Below the pieces are notes generated by a model that saw nothing but the letters and a program-made list of their open reading frames with translations, was not told the DNA's origin and did no database searches. The translations under genes were made by a program, and so were the position numbers. A DNA stretch of 6,504 nt from a bacterium (GTDB lineage: Bacteria > JAMCPX01): NCBI GenBank assembly GCA_021789095.1, contig JAJYJX010000130.1, positions 1-6,504 of the forward strand, given 5' to 3'. This document shows, piece after piece, positions 1 to 6,504 of this stretch; the first letter of the stretch is position 1; each line of letters begins with the position of its first letter.

Positions 1-257
1 TTGTCCACACCGATAACAAGTATGGGCTTATCAAGCATGTCCGATGTTACATGCGGCAGCGCTATGTTGCAGCCTATGGCCGTTGACATCACGTTCTCCC
101 TGTCTATGAACCTGGACAGCAATATTTCCCTTGTTTCGAACTGGTTTACAGACACAAGCATGTCTATAAGCGTTTTCAAAACCTCGTCTCTCTGCCTTAT
201 GTCAAAACCAATCCTTACGAGCCTTTCATCCGTGATATCAATAAGTCTTAGTGTCAT
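1..257 (-). CDS. ptsN: PTS EIIA type-2 / PtsN-like phosphocarrier protein, N-terminal part (runs off left edge)
   Basis: Reading the minus strand from the ATG at 257 gives 85 codons, with the 3' end outside the window. The protein begins MTLRLIDITDERLVRIGFDI and contains RDEVLKTLIDML and then the phospho-histidine site GCNIALPHV (residues 62-70, His69), preceded by the family's usual 'REN..S..IG' stretch. This is the pattern of the EIIA domain of the fructose/mannitol/nitrogen PTS family (PtsN, EIIA-Ntr), which accepts phosphate from NPr/HPr on that His and acts in the cytoplasm, usually as a regulator rather than in sugar uptake. A full domain is about 150 residues, so roughly half is present. 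The start is supported by AGGAA eight bases upstream. It lies 95 bp downstream of the protein kinase gene on the same strand, with no clear terminator between them, so cotranscription is plausible. A transport EIIA-fructose domain cannot be excluded because the C-terminus and further neighbours are missing. Confidence 0.85.
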   Translation of the reverse strand, partial: MTLRLIDITDERLVRIGFDIRQRDEVLKTLIDMLVSVNQFETREILLSRFIDRENVMSTAIGCNIALPHVTSDMLDKPILVIGVD

Positions 258-352: not shown

Positions 353-2716
353 CTATACTTTCAAGGAAACTATCATCGATAACAACTCGGATGTGCTTGT
401 AAAACGCCTTTCTGGTTCCTTCTGCAGGCATTTCATTACTATGTAGTTAAGCCTGTCGGGCATATCCGGTGCGACACTCTTTGCCTGGACAGGTGGTGTA
501 TGCACATGATGATAATATATGTCTCCCTTTGTGAACGGAGGTGAACCTGTAAGCATCTCGTAGAGAATTGCACCAAATGAGTATATGTCTGTCTCGAAGT
601 TTAATTTGTCGCCCTTGATCTGCTCGGGAGACATGTAGAACGGTGTTCCCATGATCTTTGTTGTGTGTTGCGTGGTGTCATGGATGATCTTGGCAAGTCC
701 GAAGTCCATAAGCTTGACAGATCCGTCAGCCGTTATCATGATGTTGCCCGGTTTGATGTCCCTGTGAATAATGTTATTGCCATGGGCGTATACGAGCGCC
801 CTTATGAGTTGTTCCGAGATCTTGAGTGACTCCTGGGGGGGCAGCTTGCCCTTTTCATGCAGTATGTCCTTCAGTGTTTTGCCGTGTATCAGCTCCATTG
901 CTATGTAATAATCAGAACCCTGTTTACCGGCATCATAAACGATTACTATATTGGGATGATTCAGTGCTGCTGCTGATTTTGCTTCCCGTAAGAAGTCATT
1001 TACAAGTTCAGGATGATGGGTAAGATCCAGACTTGGTACTTTATAAGCTACATTGCGCTCGAGAACATTATCATAGGCTTCATACACCTTACCCATGTTA
1101 CCCCTGCCGATTTCCTTTACAATACTGTACCGCGTACCCTCGTCCTTTTTTACCTGATCGGCTTTTTTAGGCTGTTTCTTGAGATTTTCTATCCTTGTAT
1201 GAGTGTCTTTGTAATTGTAATCCTCTGCGAGTATCTTCTCATATATTGTAAGTACTTTTGATGTCTCACCGGAGCCCTCCATCGCCGTTGCTATGCCGTA
1301 ATATGCGTCTATCGTTGCCCTGGTAAGAGGTTTACTTCCTATCGCCCTTCTGTATTTTTCTATGGCCTGGACAAGCATGTTTTTGCCGGCAAAAAGGTCA
1401 CCGAGCATAACACATGCGCGATAGTACTCATTCTCGTCTTCGGCGGTGACCATCTGCAGTGCCTGTATTGCATTGTCAAGATCACCAAACTTCAGGTACT
1501 GTTCTGCAGCTTCTATGAATTTTTTTTCTTTAAACAGTGTGCCTATAAGGTTCCTTTCATCCCCTATATACTTGTAGAAGTATTTTGCCCTCTCGAGGTT
1601 TCCTGCCTTTTCATAGAGTTCTGCTGCCTTTTGGGGCCTGTTTGCGGTTTCATACATCTGCGCCGAGAGATCATACTCCCTCGCCTTTTCAAACATCGCC
1701 CCTGCTTTGGCGTAGTTTGCCGCACTGCTGTACAGCTCCGCGGCATTCATGAATTCATCTATGGCTTCATAACTCTCAGCCGCTTTTTCCAGCTCGCCAA
1801 TTCCCCTGTAATATTCTGCCCTGACGGTATTTGCCCTGATAAGGTCGCCGGCCTGGTCGAAAAGATGTGCTGCTTCTATAGGCTTGTTTGCCTTTGTAAA
1901 GTACTCGCCTGCATCCAGAAGCTTGCCGGCTGCCTTAAAAGACTCCGCGGCCATTTCATCAAGCTTCATGGCTGCGTACACCTTTGCGGCCTTTTCGTGC
2001 ATTCCCACCTTTGTAAGCAATACCCCCGTCTTTTTTGCAAGGTCTGTCATCCTTGCTGTGTACTCGCTGTCGATCTCCATCTTCTCCCTTGAAAAATCAT
2101 TGTTGAACGCCTTTAAGTAGCATTGGGCCGCTCTGGTTGTATCATTCATCTTAACGTACAGTTCGGCAGCAGGCATGAACATCTCCGCATGTTCGTACAT
2201 CTGTGCGGCATTAAGGTATTCTTTTGCCTGTTCATAGGCAGATGCGGCCTCTGTATAGCTCTTTATGGAAGTATAGATGTCGCCGGCTTTTTTGAAGTTA
2301 TTGTTTGTTTTCGCAAGCCTTGCTGCTGACATTGCATCGCCGGCTTCAAGCAAAAGGCGGATAGCAGCATCAAGGTTGTTCATCCTCAGGGCAACTTCTG
2401 ACGCTTTTCTCTTCGCACCAGCCTTGATGTAAAGGTCATAGGCCTTTGACAGCTTGCCGTCGTATGCATAAAAATCAGCTGCCGCAACATAATCCCTGTG
2501 TTTCAATGCATCCCTTGCAGAATCTGAAAAGTTCGTCTTTTTTGCTTCCCCGATACCGAGAGACTTTTTGGCAATAACGATAACAATATAGAGCAATATA
2601 ATTGCACCAGCGATCTTGATAACAGTACTGTAGGGATCTGTATTGTAGAGATACACCAGGGTATTTAAAAGCCTGTCAAACCATGAAGATGCTATATCGG
2701 CAATATTGTCATTCAT
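353..2716 (-). CDS. Membrane-anchored Ser/Thr protein kinase with 13-residue helical repeats, TPRs and C-terminal kinase domain
   Basis: This is a 787-residue protein counted from the ATG at 2716. The order is: a short N-terminal segment; one hydrophobic helix (about 32-50, followed by KK..., so the bulk should be cytoplasmic); a long alanine-rich helical repeat region (about 66-428); two ordinary TPR-like repeats (about 434-507); a charged linker; and a Hanks-type kinase domain (about 528-787). The kinase motifs are complete: glycine loop GRGNMGKV, VAYK lysine (K559), FLREAK glutamate (E578), HRDIKPGN (D653, N658), DFGLA (D671), SPE, TDIYSFG and the late Arg in PERRF. It should therefore be an active kinase phosphorylating Ser/Thr, with the activation loop carrying several Thr. 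Typical PknB kinases have the kinase at the N-terminus and an extracellular sensor; here the order is reversed and sensing is probably intracellular, through the solenoid. The frame is open from a TTG at 2740 (795 aa), but that TTG lies against a putative -10 box and neither start has a good ribosome site, so the ATG is preferred. Substrates are unknown; the downstream PtsN-like gene is a possible partner by position only. Confidence 0.9.
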   Translation of the reverse strand: MNDNIADIASSWFDRLLNTLVYLYNTDPYSTVIKIAGAIILLYIVIVIAKKSLGIGEAKKTNFSDSARDALKHRDYVAAADFYAYDGKLSKAYDLYIKAGAKRKASEVALRMNNLDAAIRLLLEAGDAMSAARLAKTNNNFKKAGDIYTSIKSYTEAASAYEQAKEYLNAAQMYEHAEMFMPAAELYVKMNDTTRAAQCYLKAFNNDFSREKMEIDSEYTARMTDLAKKTGVLLTKVGMHEKAAKVYAAMKLDEMAAESFKAAGKLLDAGEYFTKANKPIEAAHLFDQAGDLIRANTVRAEYYRGIGELEKAAESYEAIDEFMNAAELYSSAANYAKAGAMFEKAREYDLSAQMYETANRPQKAAELYEKAGNLERAKYFYKYIGDERNLIGTLFKEKKFIEAAEQYLKFGDLDNAIQALQMVTAEDENEYYRACVMLGDLFAGKNMLVQAIEKYRRAIGSKPLTRATIDAYYGIATAMEGSGETSKVLTIYEKILAEDYNYKDTHTRIENLKKQPKKADQVKKDEGTRYSIVKEIGRGNMGKVYEAYDNVLERNVAYKVPSLDLTHHPELVNDFLREAKSAAALNHPNIVIVYDAGKQGSDYYIAMELIHGKTLKDILHEKGKLPPQESLKISEQLIRALVYAHGNNIIHRDIKPGNIMITADGSVKLMDFGLAKIIHDTTQHTTKIMGTPFYMSPEQIKGDKLNFETDIYSFGAILYEMLTGSPPFTKGDIYYHHVHTPPVQAKSVAPDMPDRLNYIVMKCLQKEPERRFTSTSELLSMIVSLKV

Positions 2717-2731
2717 ACTTTTATGTAAAAT

Positions 2732-2761
2732 TTTATACAATGCTGGCTATCAAAAAGTCAA
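2732..2761 (-). promoter_or_regulatory. Putative sigma70-type promoter of the kinase gene
   Basis: On the minus strand, TTGACT (2761-2756) and TATAAA (2737-2732) are separated by 18 bases, a good match to a housekeeping promoter. Transcription would start around 2725, only about 8 bases before the ATG at 2716. The message would then be nearly leaderless, which fits the absence of a Shine-Dalgarno sequence there. If correct, the upstream TTG at 2740 cannot be the start. Prediction from sequence only. Confidence 0.5.
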
Positions 2762-3814: not shown

Positions 3815-4984
3815 ATGAGCAGCAAAACAATAAGAAATATTCCGTTTTTTAGGTCCGATGTCACAGACAATGACATAAACAGTGCAGCTGATAGAGTAAA
3901 AAGTGCATTAACAGATCCTTTTCAGCTGGTAAGTAAACATGAGCAAGAGTTTTCAAAGCTGGCAAAATTCTCTTATACAGTCTCAGTGGATACGCTCCTG
4001 TCGGCGATCGCCCTGTCTTTGAAAGCACTTGGGGTAAAGCAGGGGGACGAGGTTATAGCACCGGCTTATACCGTACCTGAAATAGGAGAAGCTGTTGAGC
4101 ATTCAGGCGCTTCAATGGTGTTTGCAGATATAGACCCTGTTACACTGAACCTGTCTGTTGCTTCGGCGGAGGCGAAGATCAGCCATAAAACAAAGGCTGT
4201 CATCCTATTTGATACTGCCGGTTTGTGTGCTGATGTTGATGCCGTGATGAAAATGGCATCCTCAAACGGTATTTATGTCATTCACTGCACATACTGCAGT
4301 ATTGCACAGCAGTACAACAGGGAACCCGCAGGTTCGAAGCCGCATATTGTTATATTCTTTAACAACGAACCGTTCATCGGTGGCGCCAATATATCAACGA
4401 ACATGGAAAATACCGTGTCTTTGATAAGGAGTTTAGGCGGGCACGGGATAAAACCGGCAAATAAAGGTCAACCGGGGGGTGCGGACGGCGATAACTGGTA
4501 TTATGAAATTGTAAGCCCCGGGTTTGACTGCATGATGACAGGTATTCAGGCGGCCCTTCATTCGGTTTACGCGAACAATGCGGGACGTTATTTAGAGGGA
4601 CGCAGGCGTATCGCAAAGCTGTATAACAGTTTGCTGCAGCCCATGAAGGACATGATATTACTCCCGTTTCCCGGCGCCTCCGACGTATCGCATGCATGGC
4701 AATTGTATATCGTAAGGCTTATCAAAGGTGCTCTGGGCACATCGCGGGATGAATTTATAAAGGAGCTGGGGTACAACGGCATTAAGGCATCCGTTCATTA
4801 TATACCGCTCAACATCCATCCATATTACTCAAAAAAATACAGGTACACCTATAACACGCTTCCCAATACATACGAGGCCTATACATCGGCTGTGAGCCTT
4901 CCTCTGTATGCCTCCTTGAGCGAGGATGATGCACGGTATGTTGCGCAAACCGTTGCGGATATAGTAAAAAGGTATTCACTATAG
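3815..4984 (+). CDS. DegT/DnrJ/EryC1/StrS aminotransferase homologue lacking the PLP-binding residues (probable pseudoenzyme)
   Basis: The 389-residue product has the length and fold markers of the sugar-aminotransferase family (ArnB, PseC and relatives): IPFFRSD at the start, GDEVIAPAYT (77-86), ADIDPVTLNL (104-113), KTKAVILFDTAG (125-136), TGIQAALH (242-249), HAWQLYIVRL (293-302), SVHYIPLNIHPYY (326-338) and SLPLYASLSEDD (361-372). Active members use a lysine-bound PLP to aminate nucleotide-linked ketosugars. Here the SGT phosphate loop is TLL (60-62), the EDAA ring-stacking motif is HCTYC (157-161), the SFxxxK region reads FFNNEPFIGG (181-190) with no Lys, and NYR is DCM (238-240). The frame is uninterrupted and the C-terminal third is well conserved, so this is not simple decay. 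It starts 4 bp after purC with no good ribosome site, suggesting translational coupling, and is followed after 3 bp by a ligase-like gene. A surface-polysaccharide or regulatory role is inferred from context only; ordinary transaminase activity is unlikely. Confidence 0.85.
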   Translation: MSSKTIRNIPFFRSDVTDNDINSAADRVKSALTDPFQLVSKHEQEFSKLAKFSYTVSVDTLLSAIALSLKALGVKQGDEVIAPAYTVPEIGEAVEHSGASMVFADIDPVTLNLSVASAEAKISHKTKAVILFDTAGLCADVDAVMKMASSNGIYVIHCTYCSIAQQYNREPAGSKPHIVIFFNNEPFIGGANISTNMENTVSLIRSLGGHGIKPANKGQPGGADGDNWYYEIVSPGFDCMMTGIQAALHSVYANNAGRYLEGRRRIAKLYNSLLQPMKDMILLPFPGASDVSHAWQLYIVRLIKGALGTSRDEFIKELGYNGIKASVHYIPLNIHPYYSKKYRYTYNTLPNTYEAYTSAVSLPLYASLSEDDARYVAQTVADIVKRYSL

Positions 4985-4987
4985 CCT

Positions 4988-6193
4988 ATGAATAGCCCTG
5001 ACAGGATCGCGAGTAGCATTGGCGTTACAGGCCTTTATATTTTTGTTGTATCCATGCCTTACTCCCCTGCGTTATCCGAAACAGGATTTGCCATAAGTCT
5101 ACTTGCAGCCTTGTTCCTGGCTGTTTCAAACAGACATATTTCCCTGCCTTCCCGTACTTACAACATTGCCCTGGCTGTATTTTTAATATTGGTCATTAGT
5201 ACAATCCCTTTTTCAATGGATCCGGAACTCAGCATACGAAAGTTCGGCATTGTAAGATGGCTGTTTTTCCCTTACATCATATTGAACCTCAATCCTGATA
5301 TTAAAACGTCCGGGAATTTGATAAAAACCCTTATGGTTGCCTCCGGTATATTCTCTGTTTATCTCTTAGTACAGCATTTTTCCGGTAAACCGGTCATCCC
5401 TTATAAATTTGATGTCTATCAGACAGTAAATCCCGGCAATACGGAAGAATCGGCAAGGATTGCACTGAGGTTTGGCCAGTACTATGCAATGCTGGCAGTG
5501 TTTGCTGTTGTGCTTATTATTTATGCAAACAGGCAGCTTAAGCTGATCATGGTGAGCGTTTTATCAGGTGTATTGTCTGCAGCTTCAACCTATTTTGCCT
5601 ATGCGCGCAGCGGCGCAGTAGGTATGTGGGTGTCGCTGACAACGTGGGGTCTGCTGCGGGCAAGAACGGTTTTTTATAGTATGCTTGCAGTTACACTCAT
5701 AAGCATATTTTTGGTTTTTCTGTTTCCAAAGACGGAGTTTTCAGAGCTGTTTTACAGCACGATCCATCCTACAGCAGCTTCCGGAGCAAGGTACGGCTCG
5801 AATATGGCAAGAATACACATGTTTGATAATACCTTGAAGATAGTAAGACAACACCCTTTTACAGGAGCCGGGTTCAATTGTTACGGGGAATGGACGCGTA
5901 TCTATGAACCCGCTGATGCAGGATGGGAAAGGACTTTCAGCGATCCTGCGGAATTTCTTGCTACGACAGGGGTAACAGGGTTTCTGGGATTCCTTATACT
6001 TTATGTAAGTATATTCTCTGTATTGTTCAAATGCAGCGGTGCTTTATCAGATGCAGTGCTTGCCGCGTTTTTGGTCTTTGCTGCAGGGGGTGTGTTTGAA
6101 CCGATGTTCTTTAATACGGTATTATTGCGGGGTATTATGTTCCTGATCGGGCTGTGCATGCTGTATAATAAAAATAAAGGGACGAGGGTATAG
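4988..6193 (+). CDS. O-antigen ligase/polymerase-like (WaaL/Wzy_C family) integral membrane protein
   Basis: This 401-residue, very hydrophobic protein has about 11-12 predicted membrane helices (around 11-29, 33-47, 58-75, 86-100, 110-129, 165-180, 185-206, 208-222, 229-246, 329-347, 352-370, 376-393). One large hydrophilic loop (about 247-328) comes before the last three helices, the usual layout of O-antigen ligases. Family marks include YARSGAVGMW (205-214, with the conserved Arg207), Arg275 in NMARIHMF, and HPFTGAGFN (289-297), matching the HxxxGxG segment. WaaL enzymes transfer undecaprenyl-linked polysaccharide to lipid A-core on the periplasmic side of the inner membrane. The family motif H[NSQ]x9GxxG aligns gap-free to residues 320-334, but His-Asn is Pro320-Ala321, so the residue thought essential in WaaL is missing. 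The gene starts 3 bp after the DegT homologue with no clear ribosome site (coupled). It could be a divergent polymerase or transferase rather than a true ligase. Confidence 0.8.
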   Translation: MNSPDRIASSIGVTGLYIFVVSMPYSPALSETGFAISLLAALFLAVSNRHISLPSRTYNIALAVFLILVISTIPFSMDPELSIRKFGIVRWLFFPYIILNLNPDIKTSGNLIKTLMVASGIFSVYLLVQHFSGKPVIPYKFDVYQTVNPGNTEESARIALRFGQYYAMLAVFAVVLIIYANRQLKLIMVSVLSGVLSAASTYFAYARSGAVGMWVSLTTWGLLRARTVFYSMLAVTLISIFLVFLFPKTEFSELFYSTIHPTAASGARYGSNMARIHMFDNTLKIVRQHPFTGAGFNCYGEWTRIYEPADAGWERTFSDPAEFLATTGVTGFLGFLILYVSIFSVLFKCSGALSDAVLAAFLVFAAGGVFEPMFFNTVLLRGIMFLIGLCMLYNKNKGTRV

Positions 6194-6239
6194 GCCAGGA
6201 ACTGATGAAATGAGGGGAGAGATACATAACAGCCGGAGG

Positions 6240-6504
6240 ATGATGACAAAACAAATTAAAATACTCCTTGAGATGATCAAGTTTGAACATACCCTGTTTG
6301 CCATACCCTTTGCGATCATCGCCATGATGCTTGCGGCAGGCGGCGTTCCAACACTGTACCAGCTGTTCTGGATCCTTGTTGCTTTAACGTTTGCGAGAAC
6401 AGTGGCAATGCTGTGGAACAGGATAGTCGATGCAAAGATAGATGCAAGGAATCCGAGAACAATGAACAGGGCGATACCAAAGGGGCTTGTTTCGGTAAGG
6501 TCCG
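6240..6504 (+). CDS. UbiA-family polyprenyltransferase (MqnP/UbiA type), N-terminal part (runs off right edge)
   Basis: The first 88 codons are present. The product begins MMTKQIKILLEMIKFEHTLF, has a first membrane helix (about 19-34) and a second (about 42-58), then the prenyl-diphosphate/Mg-binding motif NRIVDAKIDARNPRT (60-74), followed by NRAIPKG (76-82). This Nx3Dx3D pattern with NPRT and R..P.G is diagnostic of UbiA-family membrane enzymes that attach a polyprenyl chain to an aromatic acid. The NPRT form resembles proteins annotated as 4-hydroxybenzoate polyprenyltransferase or MqnP of the futalosine menaquinone route; which one cannot be decided from this fragment. The family's full length is about 290 residues. 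The start is uncertain: GGAGG (6235-6239) sits directly before ATG 6240 and 3 bases before ATG 6243, whereas an in-frame ATG at 6210 has AGGAA at an ideal 8 bases and would add MRGEIHNSRR. I chose 6240 because family members usually have about 15 residues before the KFEHT motif. The gene is in line with the upstream operon. Confidence 0.88.
   Translation, partial: MMTKQIKILLEMIKFEHTLFAIPFAIIAMMLAAGGVPTLYQLFWILVALTFARTVAMLWNRIVDAKIDARNPRTMNRAIPKGLVSVRS

Follow-up and report, generated by a model that had tools for sequence, protein, structure and literature searches.

A Conserved DegT-Family Clade Predicted to Have Lost Its PLP Site, Encoded Beside an O-Antigen Ligase-Like Gene

Introduction

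The DegT-family gene described here most plausibly encodes a PLP-less pseudo-aminotransferase that descends from the ArnB/PseC/perosamine-synthase branch and acts as an accessory in surface-glycan assembly (probability roughly 0.55). The parts of this reading differ in strength. Judged from the sequences, PLP use has very probably been lost, and the best description is that of a conserved pseudo-enzyme, predicted to work without PLP and kept by selection. The binding of a glycan precursor or other sugar ligand and a functional link to the neighboring Wzy_C gene are speculative, with about even chances. The evidence base consists of a few orthologues from a single lineage.

PLP-dependent aminotransferase is the routine annotation of PF01041 members; a clade lacking the cofactor site demonstrates that this label can mislead. 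The clade also provides a clean case in which the aminotransferase fold is retained after cofactor loss, with a testable tie to surface-glycan assembly. If its pocket has acquired a new ligand or a new chemistry, it would show the repurposing of a very old cofactor site.

The Gene and Its Neighbors

The window, that is, the whole stretch of DNA analyzed, corresponds to an entire contig of 6504 bases (G000:C66). The DegT-family gene sits in it with the following neighbors:

353-2740, minus strand: TPR-Ser/Thr kinase gene, 795 aa
2911..3810, plus strand: purC, the 5' neighbor of the DegT gene in every locus extending that far
3815..4984, plus strand: DegT-family pseudo-aminotransferase gene, 389 aa, full-length PF01041, with an AlphaFold2 (AF2) model and orthologues in five other genomes
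4988..6193, plus strand: Wzy_C (O-antigen ligase-like) gene, identified by profile match, co-occurring with the DegT gene
6210..6503, plus strand: 5' part of a UbiA-type prenyltransferase gene, leaving the contig end; its full-length orthologue (L036:10403-11302) is a PF01040 protein

Four bases separate the purC stop from the DegT start, and three bases separate the DegT stop from the Wzy_C start; purC, DegT, and Wzy_C are therefore likely to be co-expressed. The order purC - DegT - Wzy_C is repeated in those contigs that extend to the neighbors. The kinase gene is divergent from purC and its position is kept in several genomes of the family. It encodes a protein whose long N-terminal part is rich in TPRs and whose C-terminal domain is a Ser/Thr protein kinase, with 72% identity to L036. 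A PTS EIIA-type protein is encoded beside it (window 3-257, minus strand; L036:3871-4362, minus strand, PF00359 being found on the L036 copy).

Family Assignment and Predicted Fold

The 389-aa protein matches PF01041 with 204.8 bits (cut-off 19.8) over profile positions 15-359 of 360. It reaches none of the NCBIfam equivalog cut-offs for PseC (178 vs. 423.5), ArnB (157.1 vs. 631), or WecE (model NF008687, 124.8 vs. 375). By homology, it is a member of the DegT/DnrJ/EryC1/StrS family standing outside every PLP-dependent functional class.

AF2 run with an alignment named A2 gave a model with a pLDDT of 92.6 and a pTM of 0.91, the fold being favored by an input made up of six clade sequences and 50 intact homologues. 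With the six clade sequences and no intact homologue, the model was poor (pLDDT 46.4). The A2 model adopts the fold type I aminotransferase architecture of ArnB and PseC. Its closest matches are GDP-perosamine synthase (3bn1, Z = 46.5), ArnB (Z = 46.3 and, for 1mdo, 45.8), PseC (Z = 45.5), and Spr1654 (Z = 44.8), with about 360-370 residues superposed, an rmsd of about 2 Å, and 18-27% identity in the structure alignments. The protein and its orthologues form a monophyletic clade (100/100) whose stem is 1.84 changes per site long, and the nearest intact relatives are ArnB/PseC-like. Within the DegT family, its most plausible origin is the ArnB/PseC/perosamine-synthase branch.

Dismantling of the Cofactor Site

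In the homologue Spr1654, eight PLP contacts are described, namely Thr59, Tyr84, Asp170, His173, Ser194, Lys199, Glu205, and Gly206 (PMC5936713). These contacts were mapped on the clade through the 6ewj alignment and A2, the numbering of the paper being the chain index minus six. Seven of the eight are lost, Gly206 being the one kept. In the column of the catalytic Lys199, each of the five clade members that can be read there has Asn vs. Lys in 50/50 intact homologues. At Asp170, which contacts the pyridine N1, the clade has Cys, Tyr, Ser, or Phe vs. Asp in 50/50 intact homologues. The losses go beyond chance, because Lys and the N1 Asp are present in every intact homologue and in no clade member. 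The aromatic residue that packs against the PLP ring (Tyr84; F/Y/H/W, mostly F, in the 50 intact homologues) is replaced by Val, Gly, or Ser, the phosphate-binding Thr59 by Leu or Met, His173 by Cys, Tyr, or Phe, and Glu205, the Glu of GEGG, by Gly, Lys, or Arg. The phosphate-binding Ser194 has become Phe or Ala, with Ser retained in one orthologue. Moreover, the Lys loop is 3-4 residues shorter, reading FSFYATKNLTTGEGG in homologues vs. IFANNDPFTKGA in orthologues. In the window, the former cofactor site and the former uracil-contact loop correspond to the following segments, to which one of the remaining Lys residues is added:

3902..3925, plus strand: residues 30-37, former SGW.TTGP loop, lost and variable (alignment; roles from PMC5936713)
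3992..4000, plus strand: residues 60-62, former SGT/SCT phosphate loop, now TLL (alignment)
4073..4075, plus strand: V87, position of the PLP-ring aromatic (V/G/S in the clade)
4211..4213, plus strand: D133, fixed in the clade (alignment)
4283..4300, plus strand: residues 157-162, former EDAAHA, now HCTYCS; H157 and T159 are clade-fixed (alignment)
4355..4387, plus strand: residues 181-191, former catalytic-Lys loop, shortened, FFNNEPFIGGA (Asn in the Lys column; deleted columns)
4451..4453, plus strand: K213, one of three clade-invariant Lys, at the base of the flexible substrate loop (alignment)
4526..4534, plus strand: residues 238-240, former KYN/NYR, now DCM (alignment)

The first-pass annotation of this DNA had reported all PLP-binding sites of the protein as altered. 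The residues that it quoted are all in place: T60-L61-L62 (3992-4000), D133 (4211-4213), H157-C158-T159-Y160-C161 (4283-4297), F181-G190 without a Lys (4355-4384), D238-C239-M240 (4526-4534), and the HYIPL and SLPLY segments. The loss is even larger than it described, since the Lys loop is shortened and the ring aromatic, the phosphate Ser, the Glu of GEGG, and the SGW.TTGP loop have also gone. Two details need revision. Asp133, listed there among the substitutions, is also found as Asp in 7/50 Lys-bearing homologues and is not diagnostic. The motif said to be NYR is indeed lost and reads DCM here, but in this subgroup the family motif is mostly KYN.

With these groups missing, no internal aldimine would form and PMP would not be holdable in any known way. 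PLP use is very unlikely because both the usual aldimine and the PMP mode of ColD-type enzymes need groups that are absent (PMC8987622). A residual use of PLP or PMP, through non-standard binding or another Lys, is nevertheless conceivable on paper: K213, K340, and K341 are the only invariant Lys of the clade, and the first of them, placed at the flexible loop's base, is close to the old site. As replacements for the catalytic residue the three were rejected, all of them lying outside the old Lys column, in which no clade member has a Lys. The N1 Asp, the phosphate Thr, mostly the Ser, the aromatic cap, the His, and the Glu are all substituted, and even ColD and E1, in which His replaces Lys, retain PMP (PMC8987622), which leaves residual PLP use very improbable. 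The distinction from ColD dehydratases drawn in the first-pass annotation is therefore borne out, and a ColD-like 3-dehydratase role is ruled out by the motifs, the loop having Asn and no His and the PMP-holding residues having gone.

A Gene Maintained by Selection

Another five genomes belonging to this family encode an orthologue. The orthologues are 46-57% identical, and two are cut by contig ends. Every one has an open frame and shares the losses wherever the sequence is readable; an intact motif occurs in none, and the recurrence of the same substitutions was the check that had been set beforehand. When 386 genomes were searched with a profile, the clade scored 277-785 bits, followed by a drop to 243 bits for an intact homologue. 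Across about 85,000 species genomes, a scan bounded by peptide-pattern seeds retrieved close relatives from the same lineage alone. Within the nine-genome phylum, the DegT gene occurs in genera g1 and g2.

Pairwise dN/dS of the DegT gene, where dS is unsaturated, ranges from 0.07 to 0.22, with 0.22 for the close pair L007/L008. The values are similar to those of the Wzy_C gene (0.09-0.25) and higher than those of purC (0.02-0.03). The gene is under purifying selection, as judged from these ratios. Cofactor-site loss accompanied by constraint elsewhere had been taken as the mark of a non-PLP protein, and this proposal is strengthened by the shared losses, the open frames, and the selection acting on them.

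A decaying gene, or an error of assembly or binning, could be suspected from the long stem branch and from genera g3 and g4 of the family, where the DegT gene was not found. Against it stand the open frames and common losses of the orthologues in other assemblies, the dN/dS values, the conserved neighbors (purC is 88-93% identical), and 145 clade-invariant columns. Decay or a single-genome error is contradicted by the five other genomes, because their orthologues share losses, gene order, and an open frame under purifying selection; its probability is close to negligible.

What Remains of the Cleft

The sugar side of the cleft has been kept, as seen in two elements:

4502..4504, plus strand: Y230, equivalent of the substrate-binding Tyr249* of Spr1654, kept (alignment)
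4790..4816, plus strand: residues 326-334, SVHYIPLNI, segment retained on the sugar side, containing the His-Tyr pair (89% identity within the clade)

H328-Y329, the equivalents of His344-Tyr345 of Spr1654, are retained in the clade. On the cofactor side, columns are conserved at the average rate within the clade (0.54 vs. 0.58 for a shift control), while in intact homologues active-site columns are far more conserved than the others (0.58 vs. 0.35). At the old active site, 11/45 columns hold a residue that is both new and fixed in the clade, an enrichment over the 22/332 columns elsewhere (Fisher p = 6e-4, in a test that uses hand-chosen segments and favors columns conserved in the family). 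The 11 residues are D34, P88, F132, D133, H157, T159, N183, P186, F187, D238, and G243. This pattern may reflect a rebuilt pocket rather than a merely relaxed one; it is suggestive only, because the overall rate at the old site is average.

We read the cleft as freed of PLP and partly rebuilt, its cofactor half having been dismantled. The aminotransferase fold and the sugar-side cleft would be kept while the PLP-anchoring and PLP-activating residues have gone. The floor would be reshaped by D133, H157, T159, N183-N184-E/D185-P186-F187, and D238, with the HYIPLH/Tyr230 side retained.

A stronger version makes the protein a new, PLP-free enzyme in which the rebuilt pocket (H157, D133, T159, N183, and D238 with H328-Y329) acts on a sugar substrate. 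The clustering of new clade-fixed residues at the old site and the conservation in the clade of NN[DE]PF, which replaces the Lys loop, speak for such an enzyme; the average rate of the cofactor-side columns and the lack of any visible partner pathway enzyme beside the DegT gene speak against it, and we consider it quite unlikely.

A Probable Surface-Glycan Context

Of the six genomes carrying the DegT gene, five also have the Wzy_C gene, and the contig of the sixth stops within the DegT gene; none of the three family genomes without a DegT gene has this Wzy_C gene. In G004, Wzy_C is at the edge of a separate contig and the DegT contig stops right after the DegT gene, so that adjacency is plausible there too. 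Because of this co-occurrence, a surface glycan is the best functional context for the DegT gene.

The interval between purC and ubiA resembles a surface-glycan slot of changing content set within a housekeeping operon. Its polysaccharide genes differ by genus, as can be observed in the purC regions of genera g3 and g4 (L080, L081, and L082). DegT and Wzy_C occupy it in g1 and g2; in g3, a different and weakly Wzy_C-like gene stands without a DegT gene; in g4, genes for two glycosyltransferases and one bacterial sugar transferase come after purC.

In the accessory role preferred here, the old cleft would bind a glycan precursor or other sugar ligand, and the DegT protein would assist or regulate the adjacent, probably co-expressed Wzy_C ligase/polymerase. 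Several observations count against it. In the Spr1654-UDP-sugar model, the loop equivalent to SGW.TTGP contacts uracil through Gly28*/Ile30* (PMC5936713); in the clade this loop has gone and its columns vary (0.29), which makes an ArnB-like binding of nucleotide sugars less likely and also weakens the sugar-nucleotide-binding role of the first-pass annotation. The g3 ligase-like gene stands without a DegT gene, hence the ligase there does not need one. Finally, the neighbors purC and ubiA are non-glycan genes.

The protein could instead be a non-catalytic subunit that pairs, as a heterodimer, with an intact DegT aminotransferase present in its cell, which it would stabilize or regulate, by analogy with serine palmitoyltransferase, which has a Lys-less subunit. 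An intact L001-type DegT gene is indeed present in G000, G001, G004, G006, and G008, and the fold is predicted to be retained. In the dimeric DegT enzymes, the active sites are located where the two subunits meet (PMC5936713). However, the elements donated to the site of the other subunit, the TTGP loop and KYN, are lost, so that the site of a normal partner could not be completed. L001-type genes are likewise encoded by G002 and G003, both devoid of the window gene; the operon is not shared, and no intact DegT gene was found to track the distribution of the window gene. The partner role, already raised in the first-pass annotation, is weakened accordingly and appears unlikely.

A Second Lys-Poor DegT Group

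Another DegT homologue of the comparison set, L027 (gene at L027:1501-2634, plus strand), also lacks the catalytic Lys. Its relatives L138-L149 have Ser, Ala, Arg, Gly, or Thr in the Lys column, Lys being present in L142 only, and the group (L027, L138-L149) shares a conserved motif of the CSVNCHP..PE.IRH type. The gene lies between nadE and lpxK in L027, L142, and L148, and lpxK also follows it in L144. The profile of the group matches 89/150 genomes of its bacterial class at 1e-70, the Lys column having been read in few of these. The literature searched, which left most subscription journals outside, yielded no description of a nadE-DegT-lpxK group.

This group resembles the window clade in the loss from the Lys column and in an adjoining envelope gene. 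In contrast to the window clade, most of its members retain the EDA Asp and an SGT-like loop, and the bacterial class differs. A single origin of the two is not supported: the sister support of 92 in a quick tree fell to 44/67 without the active-site columns. A broader proposal is that the pocket was rebuilt into a PLP-free ligand-binding or catalytic site serving O-antigen/exopolysaccharide ligation, and that DegT proteins lost PLP more than once beside envelope-glycan genes (Wzy_C here, lpxK elsewhere). We hold this only tentatively and rate it as somewhat improbable.

Comparison With Known Systems

The fold, the family, and Lys-less DegT enzymes (ColD, E1) are known. In the literature searched, which left most subscription journals outside, no DegT pseudo-enzyme was found described, nor a conserved DegT clade having lost its entire cofactor site.

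ArnB, PseC, GDP-perosamine synthase, and Spr1654 share with the clade the predicted fold (Z 44.8-46.5), the HY.PLH segment, and the Tyr249* equivalent. They differ from it in that the clade is devoid of the catalytic Lys, the N1 Asp, the phosphate Thr, the aromatic cap, His173, Glu205, and the uracil-contact loop, Ser194 being mostly gone. The NDP-sugar 3-dehydratases ColD, E1, and SpnQ likewise combine a DegT fold with the absence of the catalytic Lys. They carry His at that position and retain PMP (PMC8987622); in the clade, however, the Lys loop is shortened, Asn and not His is present, and the PMP-holding residues are lost. Finally, ScAlt2 is, like the protein described here, a conserved transaminase paralogue that has lost its ancestral role. 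ScAlt2 retains its catalytic residues and makes a Schiff base with PLP (PMC5960717), whereas in the clade the PLP site itself is gone.
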